A stretch of DNA of 53,608 bases, taken from the NCBI GenBank assembly GCA_022799175.1, contig JAAWNY010000016.1, forward strand, positions 1 to 53,608. The letters run 5' to 3'. The notes below the pieces were generated by a model. The model was not told the DNA's origin. It saw only the letters and a program-made list of their open reading frames with translations, and ran no database searches. Positions 19,373 to 30,355 of this stretch are shown here, in pieces; position 1 is the first letter of the stretch, and each line of letters starts with the position of its first letter. Made by a program: the position numbers and the translations under genes. Source of the DNA: Lachnospiraceae bacterium (GTDB lineage: Bacteria > Bacillota > Clostridia > Lachnospirales > Lachnospiraceae).

Positions 19373-22300
19373 ATGCCAGAGACAAATGAAACTTATCAGC
19401 CGTTGACATTCGATGCGATTAAGATTGGTCTTGCTTCTCCAGAGAAGATTCTGGAGTGGTCCCATGGCGAAGTAAAAAAGCCGGAGACCATCAACTACCG
19501 GACTCTGAAGCCGGAGCGAGATGGTTTGTTCTGTGAGAGGATTTTTGGCCCCAGCAAGGACTGGGAGTGCCATTGCGGCAAGTATAAGAAGATCCGTTAC
19601 AAAGGCGTGATCTGTGATCGCTGCGGTGTAGAAGTGACAAAGTCCAGCGTTCGCAGAGAACGTATCGGTCACATTGACCTGGCGGCTCCCGTGTCCCACA
19701 TCTGGTATTTTAAGGGAATTCCCAGCCGGATGGGGTTGATTTTGGATATTTCTCCGCGAGTGTTGGAGAAAGTATTGTATTTTGCATCCTATATTGTTTT
19801 GGATAAAGGCCAGACCAGCCTGCAGTATAAACAGGTTCTCTCGGAGAAAGAATATCGGGAGGAGTTGGAGAAGTGGGGGTATGGCGCGTTCCGGGTAGGT
19901 ATGGGCGCTGAGGCGGTGCTTGAGCTTTTGCAGGCAATTGATCTGGAAAAAGATTCTGAGACGCTGCGCAAGGAATTGCGGGATTCCAGTGGCCAGAAAC
20001 GGGCACGCATTATCAAGCGTTTGGAGGTTGTGGAGGCATTCCGCAATTCCGGCAATAAGCCGGAGTGGATGATCATGACAGTGATTCCAGTGATTCCGCC
20101 GGATATCCGTCCAATGGTACAGCTGGATGGCGGCCGGTTTGCGACTTCGGATTTAAATGATTTATATCGGAGAATTATCAACCGTAATAATCGTTTAGCC
20201 AGACTTTTGGAGTTGGGAGCGCCAGATATCATTGTCCGTAACGAAAAACGCATGTTGCAGGAGGCGGTGGATGCGCTGATTGATAATGGCCGCCGGGGTC
20301 GTCCGGTGACAGGACCCGGCAACCGTGCATTGAAGTCCATTTCCGATATGCTGAAAGGAAAACAGGGACGTTTCCGTCAGAACCTTCTGGGTAAGCGTGT
20401 GGATTATTCCGGGCGTTCCGTTATTGTGGTAGGGCCAGAGTTAAAGATCTACCAGTGTGGTCTGCCTAAGGAGATGGCGATTGAGTTGTTTAAGCCCTTT
20501 GTGATGAAGGAGCTGGTGCAGAATGGTACAGCTCACAACATCAAAAGTGCGAAAAAGATGGTGGAGCGTTTGCAGTCGGAAGTATGGGACGTGTTGGAGG
20601 AAGTTATCAAAGAGCATCCAGTCATGCTAAACCGTGCGCCCACCCTGCATCGTCTGGGTATTCAGGCATTTGAACCGATTTTGGTGGAAGGTAAGGCAAT
20701 CAAGCTGCATCCTCTGGTATGTACAGCGTTTAATGCAGACTTTGACGGCGATCAAATGGCAGTTCATCTGCCGCTTTCCGTGGAGGCTCAGGCTGAGTGC
20801 CGCTTCTTGTTGCTATCGCCGAACAACCTTTTGAAACCTTCCGACGGCGGACTGGTGGCTGTTCCGTCTCAGGATATGGTGTTGGGTATCTATTACCTGA
20901 CGCAGGAGCGTCCGGGTAGCAAAGGCGAGGGCAAAGCATTTAAGAGTGTCAATGAGGCAATTCTGGCTTATGAGAATGGAGTTGTGACTTTGCATTCGCG
21001 GATTAAAGCCCGAATGGAGCAGACGATGGAGGATGGGACTGTCAGAAGTGGGATCGTGGAGTCCACGGTGGGCCGTTTTATTTTCAATGAGATTGTTCCT
21101 CAGGATTTGGGTTTTGTAGACCGGAGTCAGGAAGAGAATATGCTGAAGCTGGAAGTGGATTTCCATGTAGGAAAGAAACAACTGAAGCAGATCTTGGAAA
21201 AGGTGTTTAATGTGCATGGCGCCACGCAGGCGGCTATCACTCTAGATGATATTAAGGCAATTGGATATAAGTATTCAACTCGGGCGGCAATGACGGTATC
21301 CATTTCGGATATGACAGTGCCAGAGTCAAAGCCGAAACTGATCGCAGACGCTCAGGCAACGGTAGATAAGATTGCTAAGAACTATCGCCGTGGATTGATC
21401 ACAGAAGAAGAGCGTTATAAAGAAGTGATTGAGACTTGGAAAAATACAGATGACCAGCTTACGCATGATCTGCTCAGTGGTCTAGATAAGTATAACAATA
21501 TTTATATGATGGCAGATTCAGGAGCCCGTGGATCGGATAAGCAGATTAAACAGCTTGCCGGAATGCGTGGGTTGATGGCAGATACTACGGGCCATACCAT
21601 CGAACTTCCGATCAAGTCCAATTTCCGTGAGGGTCTGGATGTACTGGAGTATTTCATCTCTGCTCATGGCGCGAGAAAAGGACTTTCGGATACTGCGCTT
21701 CGGACAGCGGACTCGGGTTATCTGACTCGTCGTCTGGTGGATGTATCCCAGGATATGATTGTCCGTGAGGTGGATTGCTGCGAAGGCAAAGATATTCCAT
21801 TTATGGAGATCAAGGCATTTGCCGACGGTAAGGAGACAATCGAGAGTCTGCAGGAGAGAATTACCGGCCGTTATATTGCTGAGACCATCACGGATCCGGA
21901 TACCGGTGAGGTAGTCGTGAAGGCGAATCATATGTGTACGCCTAGACGAGCGGCTGATGTGATGCGCGTATTAGAAAAGCTCGGACGGGATTCCGTAAAG
22001 ATCCGGACAGTTCTGACTTGTAAATCTCATGTGGGAATTTGTGCGAAATGTTATGGGGCTAATATGGCTACCGGACAGCCGGTTCAGGTCGGTGAGGCAG
22101 TTGGTATTATTGCCGCTCAGTCGATTGGCGAACCGGGAACACAGCTGACCATGCGTACTTTCCATACAGGTGGAGTGGCCGGTGGTGATATTACCCAAGG
22201 TCTTCCTCGTGTCGAAGAGCTGTTTGAGGCCAGAAAGCCCAAGGGTCTGGCGATTATCTCGGAGTTCGGCGGTGTGGTAACCATCAAGGATACAAAGAAA

Positions 22301-23113
22301 AAACGGGAGATCGTGGTGACAGATACGGAGACTGGTAATTCCAAAACGTATCTGATTCCTTATGGTTCCCGGATGAAAGTTCAGGATGAGCAGGTGATCG
22401 AGGCCGGTGACGAGCTGACGGAAGGTAGTGTCAATCCTCATGACATCTTAAAGATTAAAGGTGTCCGTGCTGTGCAGGATTATATGATCCGTGAGGTGCA
22501 GCGGGTATATCGTCTTCAGGGCGTGGAGATCAATGATAAGCATGTAGAGATGATTGTTCATCAGATGTTAAAGAAGATCAAGATTGAGGAGAGCGGCGAC
22601 AGCGATGTACTGCCAGGAACTTCTATGGATGTTTTGGACTTTAATGAGATGAATGAGGCATTGATTGCTGATGGGAAGCTTCCCGCAGAGGGGAAACAGG
22701 TAATGTTGGGTATTACGAAAGCTTCGTTAGCTACCGATTCTTTCTTGTCAGCAGCTTCGTTCCAGGAGACAACCAAAGTTTTGACGGAGGCCGCGATCAA
22801 TGGCAAGGTAGATCATTTGATTGGATTGAAGGAGAATGTGTTGATAGGTAAGCTTATTCCGGCAGGTACAGGTATGAAGCGCTATCGTTCAGTGAAATTG
22901 GATACGGACTTTTCCATGGATGATGAAATCGTGTTGGGAGATGACGACGATGAGCTTATTCTGGCAGAGGACGAGATGATGGAAGAGGCTTCTGAGGTAT
23001 TTGGTATTGATGACAATGTGGAGCTGGAGGATGAAGATGAGCTCATAGATTTGCAAGAAACCGATGATATGAGTGGATCTGAGGATGATTTTCAAGAGCC
23101 TATAGAAGAATAA
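19373..23113 (+). CDS. rpoC: RNA polymerase beta-prime subunit
   Basis: The 1246-residue beta-prime subunit. It has the N-terminal zinc-binding motif [20 protein letters not shown] (about residues 63-85), the catalytic Mg site [12 protein letters not shown] (about 455), and the trigger-loop/bridge region with [13 protein letters not shown] and [20 protein letters not shown]. It ends in an acidic tail ([16 protein letters not shown]), like RpoB. The start has AGAGAGGAG upstream. It is co-transcribed with rpoB and followed by a clear terminator at 23136. Confidence 0.99.
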
Positions 23114-23135
23114 AATAACAGAGAAGAGAGAGCTT

Positions 23136-23170
23136 CCTGTGGCTGGATTGGCCACAGGGGGTTCTTTTTT
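23136..23170 (+). terminator. rpoBC terminator
   Basis: CCTGTGGC (23136-23143), a 7-base loop, GCCACAGG (23151-23158), then GGGTTCTTTTTT. It lies 22 bases after the rpoC stop. Confidence 0.9.
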
Positions 23171-23214
23171 ATATAATGAAAAATGGCAGAAAGATAGAAA
23201 ATTGTTAGTAAAAA

Positions 23215-23297
23215 AATATAAGCACAAAGTTTTTTTACAAAAGCAATAATAATGATTCATATAACTACAAAGATATCAAATATAAACACATTTACTA
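23215..23297 (+). promoter_or_regulatory. Three-site direct-repeat array, operon 1 (probable barrel-AraC binding sites)
   Basis: Sites ATATAAGCACAAAG (TAA at 23219), ATATAACTACAAAG (TAA at 23262) and ATATAAACACATTTACT (TAA at 23283) are direct repeats at offsets 0, +43 and +64. The same three offsets recur at 28090, 28133 and 28154 upstream of the second operon. Direct repeats about two helical turns apart, the last touching the -35, are the usual layout for an AraC-family activator. The rest of 23171-23459 is AT-rich and shows no gene. Confidence 0.75.
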
Positions 23298-23319
23298 TAA
23301 AAGGCAAAACGTTTAGAAT
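23291..23319 (+). promoter_or_regulatory. Promoter of the transporter-sulfotransferase operon
   Basis: TTTACT at 23291-23296, 17-base spacer, TAGAAT at 23314-23319. The -35 is poor and overlaps the third repeat, as expected for an activator-dependent promoter. An identical TTTACT-17-TAGAAT promoter lies at 28162-28190. Confidence 0.7.
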
Positions 23320-23459
23320 ATAAGAGTAAGATATTCAAAGAATATATTGGCCAATATATAAAAGAAAAGTAATAAGAATTATTTTTAACAGGAAAAATAA
23401 GAATATCATTCGGAAGTTTAAGGAGCAGGTATTGAAAATGGATTAGAAAGGGGAAAAGT

Positions 23460-24848
23460 GTGAAAGAAAAACGTTTGGATAATGGGAAAATGATCAAGTG
23501 GGTTATAGCAGTTGGAATACCATTGGTTTTATATGGGATGATTCCTCAATCGGAGTCAGTTTCTCCGGAAATGCGTAAATTTTTTGTATGTACTGCCTGG
23601 GCTATCTTGACTTGGGCATTTAATTTGCTTCCTGTTTACGTATCGGGACTTCTTTTGACTGTCTGGGCAATTTTGTGGAACGTAGCGCCTGCCAATGTGA
23701 TCTTGTCACCTTGGACTGGATCGGTAGTTTGGCTGTCTTTGGGTGGACTCACACTTTCGGTTATTTTTGAGAAAAGTGGTTTGATGCAAAGAATCGCATA
23801 TTTCTTTATTGTAAAGTCAGGGGGATCATATAAAGGGATTGTAAATGGGATTGTATTATCGGGAATTATCATAGCATTACTGGTACCGAATATGACGGGA
23901 AGAGTGGCGCTTTATTGTGCATTGTGTTATGGGATTTATACAGCGTTGAAAATACCCAAGAACAGCGCTACTGGTGCCGGAATCATGTTTGCCGGTTTTG
24001 CCGCAGCGATTGCACCAGCATGGATTTATTTATCAGCAAGTGAGAACCTACAGTTAATCAATTCTTATTTGAAGGATTCGGGAAAGAGCGTGACTTGGAT
24101 GCAATATTTTGTAAGTAACTTTCCAATCATGATTGCCTGGACAGTTTTGCTGCTTATCACGATAAAAATATTATATAAGCAAGATGTACAAATAGATGGA
24201 AAGGATTTTTTTGAGGAAAAATATCGTGCGCTGGGAAAAATGACACAAAAAGAAATAAAGTTTTTGGTTATTTTAATTTGTCTAGTATTGGCAATGGTGT
24301 TTTCCGATATTGATGCTGGGTGGCTGTTCACTTTGGCAGTGATTGCCTGCTTTTTCCCTGGAATTGAGGTGGCAAAAGAAGAAGATATCAAAAAGGTTAA
24401 TTTTCCCATGGTATTTTTTGTTGCGGCAACCATGTCGATCGGAAGTATGTCCAATGCCGTGGGAGTGGCCGGGCTGGTCAGTGAACTGGTGATGCCGTTG
24501 CTTCAGAATGTAGGAAATATGGGCTTGATTTTATTTGCCTGGGTAACGGGAGTAGCGGTAGACTTAATGATGACACCGCTAGCTGGCATGGCAGCTTTTA
24601 CCCCATTGTTTATAGAAATTGCAGGAAAATTGGGATTGAGCGTAGTCGGAACTACCTTTAGCTTTGTATGGGGAGTGGAACAGTTATTTTTCCCATATGA
24701 ATGGGCATTATTTTTGATTCTGTTCAGCTATGATGTGTTTGATATGAAAAAGGCAATTAAATTTTGCACTACACGTACCATTTTGAGCCTGATTTTTTTA
24801 ATTTTGATTATTTATCCTTACTGGTCGATAACTGGATTTTTAAAATAA
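23460..24848 (+). CDS. DASS/SLC13-type anion:cation symporter
   Basis: A 462-residue integral membrane protein with about 11-12 hydrophobic helices. The two-fold layout, with LVPNMTGRVALYCALCYGIY in the first half and the second-half pair NFPMVFFVAATMSIGSMSNA and VDLMMTPLAGMAAFTPLF, fits the divalent anion:sodium symporter (DASS) family, which carries dicarboxylates, citrate or sulfate. The start is GTG 23460 behind AAAGGGGA. It is followed after 18 bases by the arylsulfotransferase gene, so the two form an operon. The repeat array at 23215 suggests control by the barrel-AraC protein. The substrate is unknown; an organic anion is likely. Confidence 0.8.
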   Translation: MKEKRLDNGKMIKWVIAVGIPLVLYGMIPQSESVSPEMRKFFVCTAWAILTWAFNLLPVYVSGLLLTVWAILWNVAPANVILSPWTGSVVWLSLGGLTLSVIFEKSGLMQRIAYFFIVKSGGSYKGIVNGIVLSGIIIALLVPNMTGRVALYCALCYGIYTALKIPKNSATGAGIMFAGFAAAIAPAWIYLSASENLQLINSYLKDSGKSVTWMQYFVSNFPIMIAWTVLLLITIKILYKQDVQIDGKDFFEEKYRALGKMTQKEIKFLVILICLVLAMVFSDIDAGWLFTLAVIACFFPGIEVAKEEDIKKVNFPMVFFVAATMSIGSMSNAVGVAGLVSELVMPLLQNVGNMGLILFAWVTGVAVDLMMTPLAGMAAFTPLFIEIAGKLGLSVVGTTFSFVWGVEQLFFPYEWALFLILFSYDVFDMKKAIKFCTTRTILSLIFLILIIYPYWSITGFLK

Positions 24849-24866
24849 AAGGAGGGGTTGATAGCT

Positions 24867-26741
24867 ATGGCAGCTCAATATAAGAACAAAGAACACCTAA
24901 TTATCCAACAAAACAAAAGAGAGGCAGAGCTTCTGAAACAATTGGAAAAGGGCAATTATACGGCAGAAAATCCACTGGTCCAGTTAAATCCATATCTGAT
25001 TTCTCCTTTGACAGCATTGATTTTGTTTTACACAGATACGGCGCAGGAGATTCAGGTGACGGTGAAGGGAAAGAATCCACAGGGAGACATCCTTCATGTA
25101 TTTCCTCGTTCTCGGAAACATGTCCTACCTGTTTACGGATTATATCCCGATTATGAAAACATGGTAGAATTGCGTCTTTCAGGAGGAGAGATCACTACAG
25201 TTAAGATTCGGACAGAACCTCTTCCGAAAGAGGTTCCCTGTCCCACTTTGTGCAAGGGAAGCAAAGAACATATGGGAGATAATGTTATTTTCCTGACACA
25301 GACATCAAAAGCAGATGCGTTGGCATGTGATTATAATGGGGATGTTCGGTGGTATTTAACGATCAATGTATCTTTTGATCTGAAGCGGTTAAGGAATGGA
25401 CACCTGTTGACAGGAACGGATCGGCTGATTCGTCTACCCTATTATGTAAGTGGTGTCTATGAAATGGGAGTTCATGGGAAAATATATAAAGAATTTCGAC
25501 TTCCAGGAGGATACCACCACGATACATTTGAGATGGAAGATGGAAATATCCTGATGCTGTCCCAGGAGCCAGATGGACAAACCGTGGAGGACTGGTTGGT
25601 TTTGGTCGAGAGAAAAACGGGTAATATTTTAAAAACATGGGATTATAAAAAAATATTGCCTTATGAGTGTGAAACTACCTATTCCGGCTCGGGAAGTGCA
25701 CATGATTGGTTTCATAATAATGCGGTCTGGTATGACAAAAAAACAAATTCTATAACGCTTTCCGGAAGACATCAAGATGCGATTATTAATATTGATTATG
25801 ACAGCGGGGATTTAAACTGGATTATCGGAGATCCAGATGGGTGGCCGGAAAATTATGTGGAAAAGTATTTTTTTACTCCCGTAGGAGATGATTTTGAATG
25901 GTCTTATGAACAGCATGGTGTGGTAGTTTGTCCGGATGGGGACATTATGATGTTTGACAATGGACATTATCGTTCTAAGAAAAAGGAAAACTATATGCCG
26001 GCGTCTCAAAGTTATTCCAGGGGGGTAAAATATCAAATTGACCAAAAGAAGAGAACAATCCGTCAGATCTGGCAGTATGGAAAGGAGCGGGGCGCCGATT
26101 TCTTTTCCCCATATATCTGTAATGTAGAATATTATGGTGATGGGAGATATATGGTTCATTCCGGCGGGATTGCCTATAAAGATGGAAAGCCTCTGGAAGG
26201 ACTGGGAAGTATGGATGGGGGAGAGAATACGGTTTTAAATTCGATAACTTGCGAAATCGTAAACGATCAGGTGGTCTATGAGTTACAAGTGCCATCCAAT
26301 GCATTTCGTGCAGAGAAGATTCCTTTTTACTATGCAGGCGAAACTATGGAGACCGGAGAGGGGAAGCTGTTGGGGGAATTAAGCATAACACCGGAAGTGG
26401 ATACGGAGATTCCGGCGAAAGATACAAAGGAAATGGTGCCAGATCATTATGGGCTGTCTGTCACGGAAGAAGAAGACAGAATTTTAATCAATGCGACTTA
26501 CCAAAAAGGAGAGTTGGCAATGATTCTTCTTTGGGGTGAGAACAATGAAGTTCACAGATATTATGTCAATACATCTTCGAATAATAAAAACTTTGAGGCG
26601 ATGTGCGTGGGAACCTTCATCAAGGAAGATCCTCGCAATGTTGATGTTTTCATAAATAAAAATGGACTTCAGGGAGAATTTTTCATAAAACTGTTAACAG
26701 AAGACGTAATTTATGACACAGGAATACAAGTAGTATTTTAA
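24867..26741 (+). CDS. Arylsulfotransferase (ASST)-family protein, apparently cytoplasmic
   Basis: A 624-residue ASST-like protein: an N-terminal beta domain (about 40-125) and a beta-propeller (about 135-480). In E. coli ASST, a PAPS-independent enzyme moving sulfate between phenols, the key residues are His252, His356, Arg374 and His436. Candidate equivalents here are His218 (GGYHHDTF), His283 (HDWFHNN), Arg301 (SGRHQDA) and His350 (EQHGVV). The 18-residue gap between the second His and the Arg matches the E. coli enzyme. No signal peptide is visible (start MAAQYKNKEH), unlike the exported E. coli enzyme, so it should act on cytosolic compounds, perhaps those imported by the preceding transporter. 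ATG 24867 follows GGAGGGG; a TTG at 24858 overlaps that site's spacing and is unlikely. Confidence 0.82.
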   Translation: MAAQYKNKEHLIIQQNKREAELLKQLEKGNYTAENPLVQLNPYLISPLTALILFYTDTAQEIQVTVKGKNPQGDILHVFPRSRKHVLPVYGLYPDYENMVELRLSGGEITTVKIRTEPLPKEVPCPTLCKGSKEHMGDNVIFLTQTSKADALACDYNGDVRWYLTINVSFDLKRLRNGHLLTGTDRLIRLPYYVSGVYEMGVHGKIYKEFRLPGGYHHDTFEMEDGNILMLSQEPDGQTVEDWLVLVERKTGNILKTWDYKKILPYECETTYSGSGSAHDWFHNNAVWYDKKTNSITLSGRHQDAIINIDYDSGDLNWIIGDPDGWPENYVEKYFFTPVGDDFEWSYEQHGVVVCPDGDIMMFDNGHYRSKKKENYMPASQSYSRGVKYQIDQKKRTIRQIWQYGKERGADFFSPYICNVEYYGDGRYMVHSGGIAYKDGKPLEGLGSMDGGENTVLNSITCEIVNDQVVYELQVPSNAFRAEKIPFYYAGETMETGEGKLLGELSITPEVDTEIPAKDTKEMVPDHYGLSVTEEEDRILINATYQKGELAMILLWGENNEVHRYYVNTSSNNKNFEAMCVGTFIKEDPRNVDVFINKNGLQGEFFIKLLTEDVIYDTGIQVVF

Positions 26742-26756
26742 AGTAAAATAAGACAG

Positions 26757-26805
26757 AAAGCACATCTGCAGAGGCTGAAATCGGGTCGGCAAGGATGTGC
26801 TTTTT
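26757..26805 (+). terminator. Terminator of the transporter-sulfotransferase operon
   Basis: AAAGCACATC (26757-26766) pairs with GATGTGCTTT (26794-26803) and is followed by T's. It lies 16 bases after the ASST stop. Confidence 0.85.
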
Positions 26806-26903
26806 GAATATTAAAGTACTCTTTGGTACTTAATTTAATTCATCAAAATAAAATAGCGTTTTTATACAATAATACCAAGTGAATGAGTGAAAAGAGGTAC
26901 GGC

Positions 26904-28127
26904 ATGATTCAACGAGAAGAAATACTAAGACGTCTCAGAGCACAGGTAAATATTAATGGACATATCATTGGAGCGGCGGTTGGATCCGGAATGACAGCAA
27001 AATACACGGCTATGGGTGGCGCGGATTTTCTGATGGCTTTAAGTGCGGGAAAATATCGTGTCATGGGGAGAAGTTCTTATGCCTGCTATCTTTGCTACGC
27101 CAACAGCAATGAGATAGCGATGAAGTTAGGAAGGGAAGAACTTCTTCCGATGATTAAAGATGTTCCTGTCTTATTTGGTCTTTTTGCAGGGGATCCTTTT
27201 ATTAATTTATATGAATATTTGAAAGAAATCAAAGAATCGGGATTTTCCGGAATCGTTAATTTTCCCACCATTGCAATGATAGATGGAAAATTCGGGGAAG
27301 CATTGGCAGAGGAGGGAAATTCTTACGCGAGAGAAATTGAGGCGATCAAGCTGGCACATCATTTGGACTTATTTACGGTTGCTTTTGTGATAGATGAATA
27401 TCAGACAGAACAGATGATCAAAGCTGGTGCAGACATTATCTGTGCTCATTTGGGATTGACGAAAGGCGGATTTTTGGGTGCAAAAAAATATATCTCTATT
27501 GATGATGCGCGAAAGATAACGGATAGTATATTTCTTCGGTGTAATCAGCTGAGACCCGATGTGATCAAGACAATCTATTCCGGACCGGCAAATACCCCTA
27601 TTGATATGCAGTATATGTATCAAAATACAGCTTGCCAAGGATATATTGGAGGTTCTGCTTTTGACAGGATTCCTTCAGAACGGGCAATATTAAATACAAT
27701 CAAGGCATTTAAAAGTTACGGGGGATTCGACCAGAACGATCCGATGGCAAAGCTGGTCAATGGAAACTGGAATACCGGAGACTATGTAGAATTTGTAAAA
27801 CAATATGTGAAGGAACATTATATGAAGACGATACGTCTGGGAGATTTGGCAATTGTCGCGCATGTATCTTATTCTTATCTAAGTACAAGATTCAAAAAGG
27901 AGGTGGGCTGCAGCTTTACGGAGTATCTGGTGCGTTTTCGCATCAATATGGCAAGGGAGATTCTTTCTAAGGAAAGAATCTCCTGTAGAGAAGCTGCAGA
28001 ACGTGTGGGCTATACCGATTATGCGCAGTTTTCTAAAATGTTTAAAAAGTACAGCGGGCTTACCCCGAGTGATTTTATCTCAGATAATATAAACACATTG
28101 AAAAATAAAAAAGATACTCTTATTTGA
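26904..28127 (+). CDS. PEP-hydrolase-family TIM barrel fused to AraC DNA-binding domain (transcription factor)
   Basis: A 407-residue fusion. Residues about 1-275 are a TIM barrel of the PEP_hydrolase/TIM-br_sig_trns family (PF09370), clearly homologous to the free barrel at 29525: GSGMTAKYTAMGGADFL against [17 protein letters not shown], and GFSGIVNFPTIAMIDGKF against [18 protein letters not shown]. Residues about 300-395 are a two-helix-turn-helix AraC domain (VSYSYLSTRFKKEVGCSFTEY, then EAAERVGYTDYAQFSKMFKKY and GLTPSDF). In the barrel, CHGGP of the paralogue is IYSGP here, so it may have lost catalysis and become a ligand sensor (inference). ATG 26904 has AAAGAGGT 5 bases upstream; ATG 26883 has no good site. 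It sits between the two operons that share its presumed binding repeats. Confidence 0.9.
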   Translation: MIQREEILRRLRAQVNINGHIIGAAVGSGMTAKYTAMGGADFLMALSAGKYRVMGRSSYACYLCYANSNEIAMKLGREELLPMIKDVPVLFGLFAGDPFINLYEYLKEIKESGFSGIVNFPTIAMIDGKFGEALAEEGNSYAREIEAIKLAHHLDLFTVAFVIDEYQTEQMIKAGADIICAHLGLTKGGFLGAKKYISIDDARKITDSIFLRCNQLRPDVIKTIYSGPANTPIDMQYMYQNTACQGYIGGSAFDRIPSERAILNTIKAFKSYGGFDQNDPMAKLVNGNWNTGDYVEFVKQYVKEHYMKTIRLGDLAIVAHVSYSYLSTRFKKEVGCSFTEYLVRFRINMAREILSKERISCREAAERVGYTDYAQFSKMFKKYSGLTPSDFISDNINTLKNKKDTLI

Positions 28128-28167
28128 AAAAATAAACACAAATAGAGCCAATATAAACAAATTTACT
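28086..28167 (+). promoter_or_regulatory. Three-site direct-repeat array, operon 2 (probable barrel-AraC binding sites)
   Basis: Sites AATATAAACACATTG (TAA at 28090), AAATAAACACAAAT (28133) and AATATAAACAAATTTACT (28154) lie at offsets 0, +43 and +64, the same spacing as the array at 23215-23297. The first lies inside the last codons of the regulator gene. The shared core is ATAAACACA. The third touches the -35 of the promoter at 28162. Confidence 0.78.
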
Positions 28168-28190
28168 TTGCCTATAAAAAGCAGTAGAAT
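28162..28190 (+). promoter_or_regulatory. Promoter of the Tm-1-like/TIM-barrel operon
   Basis: TTTACT (28162-28167), 17 bases, TAGAAT (28185-28190): the same two hexamers and spacing as the promoter at 23291-23319. The predicted start point is near 28197, giving a leader of about 75 bases. Confidence 0.7.
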
Positions 28191-28225
28191 TTTGTCAGGA
28201 ACAAACAACAAGTTCTACTGCTTTT
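28177..28225 (+). terminator. Terminator of the regulator gene, overlapping the next promoter
   Basis: AAAAGCAGTAGAA (28177-28189) and TTCTACTGCTTTT (28213-28225) are perfectly complementary, ending in TTTT. The left arm contains the -10 hexamer of the downstream promoter, so the hairpin forms only in read-through RNA from the regulator gene and not in RNA started at about 28197. Confidence 0.7.
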
Positions 28226-28272
28226 CAACTGGCCAGGGAAAGAGGAAGGATCATCAAAGAAAGGAAAGAATA

Positions 28273-29502
28273 ATGAAGACAATTGCAATTGCGGGTACTT
28301 TTGATACCAAAGGAAAAGAGTACCTTTATGTAAAAAGTCTTGTGGAAGAGCTGGGAATACAAACGCTCATGATCCATACTGGAGTATTTCCGCCGGAATT
28401 TCCGGCTGATGTATCAAACGAGGAAGTGGCAAAAGCAGCAGGGTATGAGTTGCAAGAGCTTGTGGAGAAGAAAGACAGAGCATTAGCGACAGCGGTTTTG
28501 TCTAAAGGAATGCAGAGGTTAGTTCCGAAGTTGTATCGGGAAGGAAGGTTTGATGGGATTCTGTCATTTGGGGGATCCGGCGGAACCTCTATGGTTACAC
28601 CGGCTATGAGAGAACTTCCGATAGGAGTGCCGAAGTTGATGGTTTCCACCATGGCTTCGGGAAATGTGGAGCAATATGTGGGGATCAGCGATATCATTAT
28701 GATGCCATCCATTGTTGATGTGGCGGGATTAAATAAAATATCAAAAACAATTTTTCGAAATGCCGTATTGGCCATGGCAGGAATGGTTGAGATGAAAGAT
28801 AAATTAAAGAAAGATACACAAGAGCAAAAGCCGTTAGTGGCAGCTACCATGTTTGGTGTGACTACGCCATGTGTCAATTATGCCCAAAATTATTTGGAGC
28901 GACAGGGATATGAAGTTCTTGTTTTTCATGCGACAGGAACGGGTGGAAAGACAATGGAAGCTTTGACAGAGGCAGGCTTTTTCCAAGGGGTTTTGGACTT
29001 GACGACAACAGAGTGGTGCGATGAGCTTATTGGCGGAGTACTTGCGGCAGGCCCCCATCGCTGTGAGGCAGCAGGGAAAAAACGGATTCCGCAGGTAGTG
29101 TCTGTAGGAGCCATGGATATGGTGAATTTTGGCCCTATGGATACCGTACCAAAAAAATTCTCTGACAGGAATTTGTACCAGCATAATCCGACAGTCACTC
29201 TGATGAGAACCACTGTTGACGAAAATATCGAAATAGGCAGCAAGCTGGCAGAAAAATTGAATATGGCAGTGGATAAAACGATATTGATGTTGCCTCTTGG
29301 TGGAGTATCCGGCATCGATATGCCGGGGCAGCCTTTTTATGGGAAGGAAGAGGATGAAGCTCTGTTTGAGATATTGCGCAAAAAAGTAAACAAGGAAACT
29401 GTAGAAATTCTGGAAATGACTCAAAACATCAATGACCCGGTTTTTGGTGAAACCGCAGCAAAAAAGTTGATTGAGCTGATGGAAGCAAAACGTGAATCAT
29501 AA
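28273..29502 (+). CDS. Tm-1-like ATP-binding protein (UPF0261)
   Basis: A 409-residue UPF0261 protein, the family that forms the N-terminal half of the tomato antiviral protein Tm-1. It opens [20 protein letters not shown] and has the glycine-rich segment [20 protein letters not shown] (about residues 94-113), [33 protein letters not shown] and a C-terminal [18 protein letters not shown]. Family length is about 400, so it is complete. ATG 28273 follows AAGGAAAG. In Tm-1 this domain is fused to a TIM barrel of the type encoded by the very next gene, so the two probably act as one complex. The biochemical reaction is not established. Confidence 0.9.
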
Positions 29503-29524
29503 AATTATTATGGAGGAAATGAAT

Positions 29525-30355
29525 ATGAACCGGATGACAAGAAGTGAAATCATGGATATGTTTAAAAAGGAAGTTGCAGAAGGAAAAATCCTTGTTGGTG
29601 TGGGGGCAGGAACGGGAATTACAGCAAAGTGCAGCGAAAAAGGCGGTGCAGACATGCTGATTATTTATAATTCAGGACGTTTTCGAATGGCAGGAAGAGG
29701 TTCTCTGTCTGGCCTTCTGGCATACGGCGATGCCAATAAAATTGTTCAGGAAATGGGAGCAGAAGTACTTCCGATTGTAAAGCATACGCCTGTATTGGCC
29801 GGAGTATGTGGTACCGATCCATTTCGGGTGATGGACCTGTTTCTGAAACAATTGAAGGAGCAAGGGTTTAATGGAGTGCAGAATTTCCCGACGGTAGGCT
29901 TGATTGACGGAAAGTTTCGGATAAATTTAGAGGAAACAGAGATGGGATACGGTTTGGAGGTGGAGATGATTCGGGAAGCTCATAAACTGGACATGCTGAC
30001 TTGTCCCTATGTGTTTGATGAAGCACAGGCAAAGGCAATGGCAGAAGCCGGTGCGGATATTTTGGTTGCCCATATGGGACTTACGACAAAAGGATCGATC
30101 GGAGCAGAAACAGCCTTGACTTTGGATGATTGTTGTGTGAAGATTCGTGCGATTATCAAAGCAGGACGCGAGGTAAATCCGGATATTATGGTAATTTGTC
30201 ATGGAGGACCCATAGCCGATCCAGAGGATGCTGCCTACGTCATTCGAAATGTTCCAGAAATCGATGGCTTTTTCGGAGCTTCCTCTATTGAACGTCTGGC
30301 TTCAGAAAGAGGAATGACTGCACAGACAAAAGCTTTTAAAACAATTCAGAAATAA
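29525..30355 (+). CDS. PEP-hydrolase-family TIM-barrel protein
   Basis: A 276-residue single-domain TIM barrel of PF09370, matching the C-terminal half of tomato Tm-1. Motifs are [56 protein letters not shown] and [15 protein letters not shown], and a C-terminal [17 protein letters not shown] 29525 lies 8 bases after GGAGG; in-frame ATGs at 29492 and 29519 are less well placed. The gene begins 22 bases after the UPF0261 stop. It is about 40% identical by eye to the barrel of the AraC fusion at 26904, so regulator and enzyme probably bind the same or a related ligand. Confidence 0.9.

Follow-up and report, generated by a model that had tools for sequence, protein, structure and literature searches.

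The stretch analysed here (the window) comprises 53,608 nucleotides from a Lachnospiraceae bacterium (contig JAAWNY010000016.1). It encodes a DASS-type anion transporter and an arylsulfate sulfotransferase, then a regulator in which a TIM barrel is fused to an AraC-type domain, then a UPF0261 protein and a second TIM-barrel protein, here called PEPH (Table 1). In an alignment, His350 of the sulfotransferase falls at His436 of E. coli AssT. The sulfotransferase of Eubacterium A-44 reportedly increases in response to sulfate donors (PMC13426309). The C-terminal double helix-turn-helix (HTH) of the regulator matches Pfam HTH_18 (3.2e-18) and HTH_AraC (1.7e-15), which places it in the AraC/XylS family. 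The hairpin around the UPF0261 -10, the GGCC palindromes in both leaders and the altered-enzyme sensor, all described below, were absent from the original prediction made for this DNA.

Table 1 Genes, promoter elements and inverted repeats of the locus (window coordinates)
Feature	Position	Strand	Remarks
Transporter promoter, distal site A0	23218..23226	+	ATAAGCACA, read directly
Transporter promoter, middle site A	23261..23269	+	ATAACTACA, read directly
Transporter promoter, proximal site B	23282..23290	+	ATAAACACA, abuts -35
Transporter promoter, -35	23291..23296	+	TTTACT, read directly
Transporter promoter, -10	23314..23319	+	TAGAAT, 17 bases past -35; short stem only
Transporter leader palindrome	23342..23359	.	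18-bp, perfect, ATATATTGGCCAATATAT
DASS-type anion transporter	23460..24848	+	Na_sulph_symp; under NCBIfam dass cut-off
Arylsulfate sulfotransferase	24867..26741	+	Arylsulfotrans
Regulator	26883..28127	+	PEP_hydrolase-like TIM barrel (13-278) fused to AraC HTH (about 302-398); preceding 220 bases lack a ATAAACACA-type site at up to one mismatch
UPF0261 promoter, distal site A0	28089..28097	+	ATAAACACA; within 3' end of regulator gene
UPF0261 promoter, middle site A	28132..28140	+	ATAAACACA
UPF0261 promoter, proximal site B	28153..28161	+	ATAAACAAA, abuts -35
UPF0261 promoter, -35	28162..28167	+	TTTACT, read directly
Hairpin, 5' arm	28177..28192	+	Includes whole UPF0261 -10
UPF0261 promoter, -10	28185..28190	+	TAGAAT, 17 bases past -35
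Hairpin, 3' arm	28210..28225	+	Ends in TTTT; T-run too short for terminator filter
UPF0261 leader palindrome	28229..28236	.	CTGGCCAG, counterpart of 23342-23359
UPF0261 protein	28273..29502	+	Homologue of plant Tm-1 N-terminal part
PEPH	29492..30355	+	PEP_hydrolase-like TIM-barrel protein; paralogue of regulator's sensor

The transporter and UPF0261 genes are preceded by matching promoters. The TAA of the repeats lies at 23219, 23262 and 23283 in the former and at 28090, 28133 and 28154 in the latter, and the predicted arrangement (offsets of 0, +43 and +64, TTTACT, 17 bases, TAGAAT) is exact at both on direct reading. In a repeat search of positions 22900-28600, the first direct-repeat family paired 23261-23296 with 28132-28167 (36 nt, 81% identity). 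The composite ATAAACACA-N12-ATAAACACATTTACT, with up to three mismatches, matched twice in the organism's own genome (2.97 Mb scanned, 91% complete), at these two promoters, and not at all when read backwards, which bears out the claim that a chance origin is very unlikely. The backwards pattern gave four matches in total over 397 family genomes, the own genome included (about 0.01 per genome). Composite matches were present in six family genomes, those in G225, G164 and G447 (all with three mismatches) being at the rate of this control.

The relatives compared comprise 67 loci, nine of which (L089-L097) match the HTH alone; the other 58 are regulator loci, and 51 of these carry regulator, UPF0261 and PEPH genes in that order. 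Nine of the 58 (L032, L037, L044, L045, L053, L060, L075, L076 and L088) were dropped, the UPF0261 gene or its start being missing, displaced or joined, and L003 (genome G038) was added, giving 50 regulator-UPF0261 regions besides the window. Joint scoring omitted L129, near-identical to L128, and L133, in which the regulator lies on the other strand. Single-letter shuffles served as controls for the joint score and the leader palindromes, and dinucleotide-keeping shuffles for site pairs, hairpin stems and stems away from the regulator.

A 21-bp pair of ATAAACACA-type direct repeats abuts the -35 in these 50 intergenic regions, and the gap between -35 and -10 is 17 bp in nearly all of them. 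With at most two mismatches per site, 33 pairs 21 apart were found, compared with 0.68 (maximum 3) in shuffles and 0 on the reverse strand. Conservation of the repeats at orthologous loci, set beforehand as the test that could refute the prediction, was found: the joint score, which takes in two sites 21 bp apart, the -35 and the -10, exceeded 99% of shuffles in 49 of the 50 regions. The single miss, L003, had been cut off at 260 bases and reaches 25.9 at full length. Mean joint scores were lower when a spacing other than 21 was used (19.5-22.3 vs 24.8; next best 19 and 23). For random A+T-rich locus segments (n=2000), the 95% level stood at 19.4 and the 99% level at 25.7, the latter raised because some segments overlap a real site.

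The constant core of the promoter is the 21-bp repeat pair abutting the -35. Site A was found within two mismatches in 54 of 55 promoters and site B in only 29 of 55. The third, distal site, located at -41 to -43, is real but lineage-limited and occurs in 18 of 55 (16 of 53 minus the two window promoters). All three sites persist in the transporter promoter of the sister genome G013, where the distal one lies at -44 and not at -43. Counting against the pattern, L121/L037 has a poor promoter and L118 a degenerate site B. Paenibacillus and several Clostridium likewise have a degenerate site B, of the form ATAAAAGCG-TTTTCA; it is similar to a CcpA cre box, with one to two mismatches to the consensus TGNAANCGNWNNCA, and this overlap is a lead.

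These observations suggest that the fusion very probably switches on the two neighbouring operons by way of their matching promoters, which recur widely among relatives. Taken as a whole, with direct-repeat binding and a terminator laid over the promoter, we consider it highly likely that the UPF0261-PEPH operon has the fusion as its dedicated regulator, very probably one that activates, and that in this gut lineage the transporter-sulfotransferase operon is under the control of the fusion as well. Two regulator monomers would bind the direct repeats two helical turns (21 bp) apart; the proximal monomer, abutting the poor -35 (TTTACT), would aid RNA polymerase in the manner of XylS at Pm, and the distal site, four turns upstream, would add a further contact in about one third of the promoters examined. 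A 21-bp spacing belongs to the layout of AraC/XylS activators. A fusion that instead represses, blocking the polymerase from its place at the -35 until freed by ligand, would be compatible with site B abutting the -35, but this is unlikely, as AraC/XylS activators typically act from direct repeats in tandem of which the proximal copy lies at a poor -35, and the -35 hexamers stay poor (TTTACT and TTTTCA, 13 each among 50 distinct promoters).

The UPF0261 -10 lies within a hairpin, which in the window is a perfect 16-bp stem followed by only four T and is not called by the T-run filter. Terminator-like stems overlapping the -10 were found in 36 of 51 regions, window included (p<=0.01 each), and in 31 of the 36 they cover the entire hexamer. 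A T-run follows on the coding strand in 32 of the 36, the remaining four being the window, L047, L049 and L058. Counted from the first base of the -10, the 5' arm extends no further than +10 in any of the 36, short of the expected transcription start at about +12. Among the 15 regions lacking such a stem, six (L035, L036, L041, L042, L046 and L078) have another terminator-like hairpin between regulator and promoter; neither was found in L038, L064, L066, L068, L082, L083, L084 and L086. L131, L134 and L136 showed no stem either. The stem sequence changes while pairing, G-U included, is kept: across 29 distinct stems, varying columns were 88% Watson-Crick, compared with 63% (maximum 69%) when the 3' letters were redealt, a figure that leans towards pairing because the stems were selected for it. 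Covariation with the 3' arm extends to the third base of the -10.

When the regulator gene is the immediate upstream neighbour, its terminator would in most cases be superimposed on the target promoter, the -10 sharing bases with the 5' arm. Transcripts running on out of the regulator gene would contain the complete hairpin, and those begun at the target promoter would lack the 5' arm and escape termination. The inverted repeat could instead be a protein operator, since it covers the -10, a repressor position, is nearly symmetrical and has a short T-run in the window. That is improbable given the covariation and the T-runs just described; moreover, promoters not directly downstream of the regulator (window transporter, L118, L119 and L132) have only short stems, and the six loci in which the regulator has its own terminator-like hairpin have no -10 stem. 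Our confidence is evenly divided on the broader proposal of a terminator-promoter hybrid across Firmicutes, in which the regulator's intrinsic terminator doubles as the operon's core promoter, -10 and stem co-evolve, the operon is isolated from read-through, and expression rests entirely on the sensor, a disarmed version of the operon's own enzyme that was also passed on to sigma-54 activators. A literature search gave no relevant prior description of such an overlap, which may still have been reported.

The pattern of occurrence points to the fusion as the protein that acts at the repeats. All six further loci with the regulator upstream passed the joint score, so that 56 of 56 regulator-upstream promoters pass (L003 counted untrimmed), compared with 0 of 8 UPF0261 loci that lack an AraC fusion on their upstream side. 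Of the latter genomes, G699, G811, G654 and G670 encode the enzyme only and no AraC fusion, G543, G634 and G741 have a sigma-54 fusion in its place, and in G038 the AraC fusion is encoded at another locus. When the window and the 67 loci were scanned under a strict filter (1.6 Mb, both strands), 20 matches resulted, all on the coding strand; 19 lie at regulator-UPF0261 and the sole other one precedes a chemotaxis receptor gene adjoining a regulator. The window's own transporter promoter fails this strict filter. Binding by another protein, be it some other regulator of the AraC type or a factor that acts globally, with the adjoining fusion incidental, is very unlikely in view of these counts and of the two composites only in the own genome, even though the motif is A+T rich and the genome encodes further AraC-type proteins (the fusion has 17 matches in G000, a count that takes in PEPH and the fusion itself). 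Least credible of all is a recent duplication without present function, which the 36-nt similarity and the different position of the transporter operon in relatives might suggest: in G013 the transporter sites and palindrome are kept and the surrounding bases differ, although the G013 regulator has lost its HTH.

Each of 21 regulator-bearing genomes had at most one composite match: 14 had one, 13 of them at UPF0261 and one (G013) at the transporter promoter. Counting against the pattern, seven of the 21 had none at three mismatches. A larger regulon was rejected on these counts together with the lack of a third composite in the own genome. Autoregulation was likewise rejected: the 220 bases before the regulator contained no ATAAACACA-type site (at most one mismatch) and no 21-bp pair (at most two mismatches each) at any of the 12 loci examined.

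The proposed single regulon of four enzyme and transport genes gains support from six other genomes (L036/L120, L037/L121, L116, L117, L118 and L119), in which all four adjoin on one strand, the transporter and sulfotransferase genes coming directly after those for UPF0261 and PEPH. Co-transcription of all four is not certain, because these relatives have stretches that could fold into hairpins in the DNA separating PEPH from the transporter gene. Apart from the transporter-sulfotransferase neighbours in some Lachnospiraceae, no conserved neighbour naming a substrate was found beyond regulator-UPF0261-PEPH in many lineages, among the selected neighbours put to Pfam.

The regulator senses with an altered form of the TIM-barrel enzyme that the operon itself encodes. 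In this barrel, residues that are near-invariant in the PEP_hydrolase enzyme group (PF09370, of which "TIM-barrel signal transduction domain" is the older name) have been switched, H237Y, K200G and Y59L among others, and we file it as a sensor and not an enzyme because of these switches. The three named switches occur in 30 of 30 AraC fusions examined (of 58 regulators) and in 3 of 3 sigma-54 activators that carry the altered sensor and adjoin a UPF0261-PEPH operon; a quick tree of these sequences and 29 enzymes had long branches. K200G may partly be a one-residue shift, as the window regulator has Lys at 194, beside the aligned position. The inducing ligand would be a metabolite of the UPF0261-PEPH pathway, as the sensor keeps many conserved residues of PEPH and has others changed, including a near-invariant His.

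As in XylS/Pm and AraC/araBAD, an AraC-family HTH would here act at tandem direct-repeat sites, the proximal one at a poor -35. The AraC sensor is an arm-bearing N-terminal domain and not a PEP_hydrolase-type TIM barrel, and here, in most relatives examined, the -10 overlaps the terminator-like hairpin of the regulator gene. XylS binding sites are described in PMC5481539 as two 15-bp direct repeats. The sigma-54 fusions share the N-terminal PEP_hydrolase domain but have an AAA+ output and a -24/-12-like site before UPF0261 in place of the AraC output and -35/-10 promoter. One altered-enzyme sensor on two unrelated output domains is a clear case of an enzyme fold turned sensor, and a -10 that overlaps the stem of a probable terminator makes for a compact arrangement, the same bases serving both elements.

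Homology links the UPF0261 protein to plant Tm-1, a tomato virus-resistance gene product, in its N-terminal part (PDB 3wry, 3wrw). PMC5028733 describes the C-terminal part as a TIM-barrel signal transduction domain, and PEPH is placed in its family on that basis; AraC is nowhere mentioned in the paper. The two parts, fused in plants, are separate proteins found together in many bacteria. No function is assigned to UPF0261/PEPH among the literature matches listed, and PDB 9mpy is named only "UPF0261 domain-containing protein". The locus offers a handle on this gene pair: with a dedicated regulator and a precise binding code, the inducer should be findable by reporter and would point to the substrate, and the operon connects UPF0261 and PEPH with DASS-type transport and with an arylsulfotransferase.

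Palindromes of at least 10 bp occur in 11 of 54 leaders (2.7 in shuffles, maximum 7), and were rejected as a general feature, their sequences being lineage-specific; only the window's GGCC pair was retained for this reason. The 14-base core of the transporter leader palindrome has no other exact copy in the own genome and one at a single mismatch. This palindrome, which is unchanged in G013, is a possible second operator.

The two promoters before the transporter and UPF0261 genes of the window carry matching arrays of a distal, a middle and a proximal repeat (sites A0, A and B, the last abutting the -35), and the coordinates in the original prediction were all correct on direct reading. With the 9-mers anchored on ATAAACACA, sites start at the positions tabulated below, and the distance from TTTACT to TAGAAT is 17 bases in both promoters. 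A composite pattern of two sites plus the -35, searched at ≤3 mismatches, matched the 2.97-Mb genome twice, at these two promoters; read backwards it gave 0 matches in this genome and 4 in total over 397 family genomes (this one included).

Genes and promoter features of the locus
Feature	Position	Remark
rpoC	19373-23113	precedes the five genes; recognised from translation, without a family search
Sites A0, A, B, transporter promoter	23218, 23261, 23282	site starts
Palindrome, transporter leader	23342-23359	ATATATTGGCCAATATAT
DASS-type transporter gene	23460-24848	
Arylsulfate sulfotransferase gene	24867-26741	
Regulator gene	26883-28127	PEP_hydrolase-like TIM barrel + AraC helix-turn-helix domain
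Sites A0, A, B, UPF0261 promoter	28089, 28132, 28153	site starts
Stem, 5' arm	28177-28192	contains the UPF0261 -10
Stem, 3' arm	28210-28225	
Palindrome, UPF0261 leader	28229-28236	CTGGCCAG
UPF0261 protein gene	28273-29502	
PEPH (PEP_hydrolase-like protein) gene	29492-30355	

The upstream regions of orthologous loci, in which the repeats were expected to recur, show the 21-spaced pair to be conserved. Our sample comprised 67 loci from one protein-guided scan, 58 of which match the barrel too; the order regulator, UPF0261, PEPH is found in 51 of these 58 (counting L032, which has a join) and ranges over Lachnospiraceae, Paenibacillus, Clostridium, Anaerovibrio, Pectinatus, Erysipelotrichaceae, a Fusobacteriaceae bin and Lonepinella koalarum. 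In 50 intergenic regions between regulator and UPF0261, there were 33 site pairs exactly 21 apart (≤2 mismatches per site; shuffles: mean 0.68, maximum 3), and none on the reverse strand. The joint score of both sites, -35 and -10 exceeded 99% of shuffles in 49/50 regions; the sole miss (L003) reflects trimming, its promoter lying outside the 260 bases used (untrimmed score 25.9). Other spacings gave lower joint scores, with 19 and 23 raised too because the -35, the -10 and one site keep their places. Spacing between the hexamers was 17 in 48/50 distinct promoters, in a search that permitted 16-18 with a slight preference for 17. Site A lies within 2 mismatches in 54/55 promoters and site B in 29/55, the latter being the weak half of the pair, above all where it is cre-box-like. 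Such cre-like loci are L049-L052, L055, L058, L059, L065, L067, L069-L074, L077, L080 and L083-L085, where site B plus the -35 together (such as TAAAAGCGTTTTCA and TAACAACGTTTACA) differ by 1-2 mismatches from the CcpA cre consensus. This suggests that carbon catabolite repression may act on the same bases.

The three-site 0/+43/+64 pattern, originally proposed as the shared architecture, is real and looks functional, the 21-bp pair being its more constant part: 18/55 promoters (both window promoters counted) have a site with ≤1 mismatch 41-43 bases ahead of site A, against 0/55 for a control window (-70 to -66), and all three sites are retained in the sister genome G013. There, the transporter promoter has sites at -44, 0 and +21 and hexamers TTTATT and TAAAAT, and the surrounding DNA differs.

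A second search used UPF0261 as query against 391 class genomes and yielded 15 genomes besides our own. An AraC fusion lies directly upstream in six of these, with promoter scores of 21.6-25.6, above all shuffles (maximum 21.1); L133, with its fusion on the opposite strand, was left unscored. In contrast, eight UPF0261 loci without an upstream AraC fusion (seven class genomes, with only one kept from a near-identical pair, plus L123 of G038) scored 14.1-19.0, under the 99% line (20.1). Four of these genomes (G699, G811, G654 and G670) have the enzyme only, three (G543, G634 and G741) have a sigma-54 fusion, and G038 has an AraC fusion at another locus. Closest to positive, at 19.0, was L132, where one site adjoins TTTACT, although its genome, G811, yielded no fusion.

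For AraC, activator sites take the form of paired direct repeats at a poor -35. The same holds for XylS at Pm, as described in PMC5481539. Beyond what the sequences directly display (elements, spacing, conservation, co-occurrence, gene linkage and hairpin), the regulator very probably binds the sites and is likely to activate transcription from them. An AraC-type regulator with tandem sites is of a known kind; what sets this case apart is the sensor, the regulon and a -10 overlapping a terminator stem. An excerpt of PMC5028733 terms the UPF0261 domain uncharacterised and does not mention AraC, and literature searches on the domain names and the fusion returned no title about this regulon in the library searched.

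The UPF0261 -10 of the window lies inside the 5' arm of a perfect 16-bp stem. Requiring a 5' arm over ≥3 bases of the -10 and p≤0.01 when the 44 bases that follow the -10 are dinucleotide-shuffled, we found such a stem in 36/51 regulator-UPF0261 regions (window counted), covering the whole hexamer in 31; 32/36 pass a T-run filter (failing: the window, L047, L049, L058). Of the 15 others, another terminator-like hairpin separates regulator from promoter in six (L035, L036, L041, L042, L046, L078), eight have neither (L038, L064, L066, L068, L082, L083, L084, L086), and L052 has a stem at p=0.03. An additional six regions comprise L127 and L135 with the stem (p=0), L130 with one at p=0.025, and L131, L134 and L136 without it. 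Where the regulator gene is not immediately upstream of the promoter (window transporter, L118, L119, L132), stems are always short, the longest (10 bases, p=0.015) at the window transporter promoter. Across 29 distinct stems, all chosen for their pairing, the pairs are maintained through sequence change, position three of the -10 occurring in all four Watson-Crick pairs and in G-U. We read the stem as the regulator gene's intrinsic terminator laid on the target promoter; transcription can reasonably be expected to terminate there, so that the hairpin would halt read-through from the regulator gene. In 36/36 stems the 5' arm reaches no further than +10, counted from the -10 start, and by rule a transcript would start near +12; the operon's own transcript would be unable to form the hairpin. 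In Anaerovibrio (L041, L046), the 3' arm of the separate terminator takes in the distal regulator site, apparently one sequence with two roles.

In G013 (L032/L122:2089-3961), a deletion, either real or an assembly fault, joins regulator and UPF0261, removing the HTH, promoter and UPF0261 start; the transporter promoter is retained. The regulator frame is apparently interrupted in L069, L082, L083 and L088, and in L082 and L083 the stem at the -10 is absent as well. In Terrisporobacter (L066 and L068:7321-7839), UPF0261 has only its N-terminal domain (about 176 aa), with PEPH still next. Lonepinella koalarum (L043), a member of the Pasteurellaceae, has the whole module including promoter and hairpin, suggesting transfer from Firmicutes. 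Both window leaders contain a GGCC-centred palindrome, possibly a second operator; that of the transporter leader is identical in G013, and similar ones occur in L039, L040, L118 and L003.

That the four enzyme and transport genes form one regulon, as first proposed, gains support from gene linkage in six genomes and from the promoter copy in the window and G013, which argue for co-regulation. In the six genomes (L036/L120, L037/L121, L116, L117, L118, L119), same-strand transporter and sulfotransferase genes follow PEPH, with 89-271 bases between PEPH and the transporter match; in L118 and L119 one more gene intervenes between transporter and sulfotransferase, in L118 a pyridine-nucleotide oxidoreductase. 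At the threshold used, none of these loci showed a composite ahead of the transporter gene, and several of the gaps contain sequence able to fold into hairpins, so a single transcript for all four genes is likely there but not certain. In the window and G013 (there over two contigs), transporter and sulfotransferase genes lie on the other side of the regulator, and the transporter gene has its own promoter copy. By sequence, the sulfotransferase is related to E. coli AssT (3elq), its His350 aligning with AssT His436, for which a catalytic role is described in PMC13426309; UPF0261 is related to Tm-1 (3wry/3wrw). A distant UPF0261 (29%) and PEPH (34%) pair in L123:502-13415 neighbours two sulfotransferases, a DASS transporter, a RuBisCO-like protein, an amidohydrolase and a DeoR regulator, a gene set that offers a lead to the pathway. 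At L065:4407, a composite promoter copy precedes a chemotaxis receptor (MCPsignal) gene adjoining the regulator.

The barrels of regulator and PEPH share the PDB relative 2p10. Comparison of 58 regulators with 57 enzymes shows many barrel residues that both groups conserve and others that switch cleanly: in the subset compared, H237Y, K200G, Y59L and A263G occur in 30/30 AraC fusions and 3/3 sigma-54 fusions, the corresponding residues of the 30 enzyme rows (one of them a duplicate) being H (29), K (26), Y (28) and A (27). The sigma-54 fusions (PEP_hydrolase, Sigma54_activat; HTH_8 in 2/3) lie beside UPF0261-PEPH in L142-L144, and a -24/-12-like site precedes UPF0261 in 3/3; over both strands, the whole 4.2-kb loci gave 1, 4 and 2 matches. 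A quick tree separates sensors from enzymes with support 99, but one distant enzyme falls with the sensors, and the branches of the tree are long. Given the shared switches and the tree, a single origin of the sensor from the enzyme is probable, followed by its joining to two output types. We lean towards a ligand drawn from the pathway itself, as substrate or product. AraC-fused barrels (46-48% identical) also occur in L075 and L076, beside DeoC/LacD-type aldolases in place of UPF0261.
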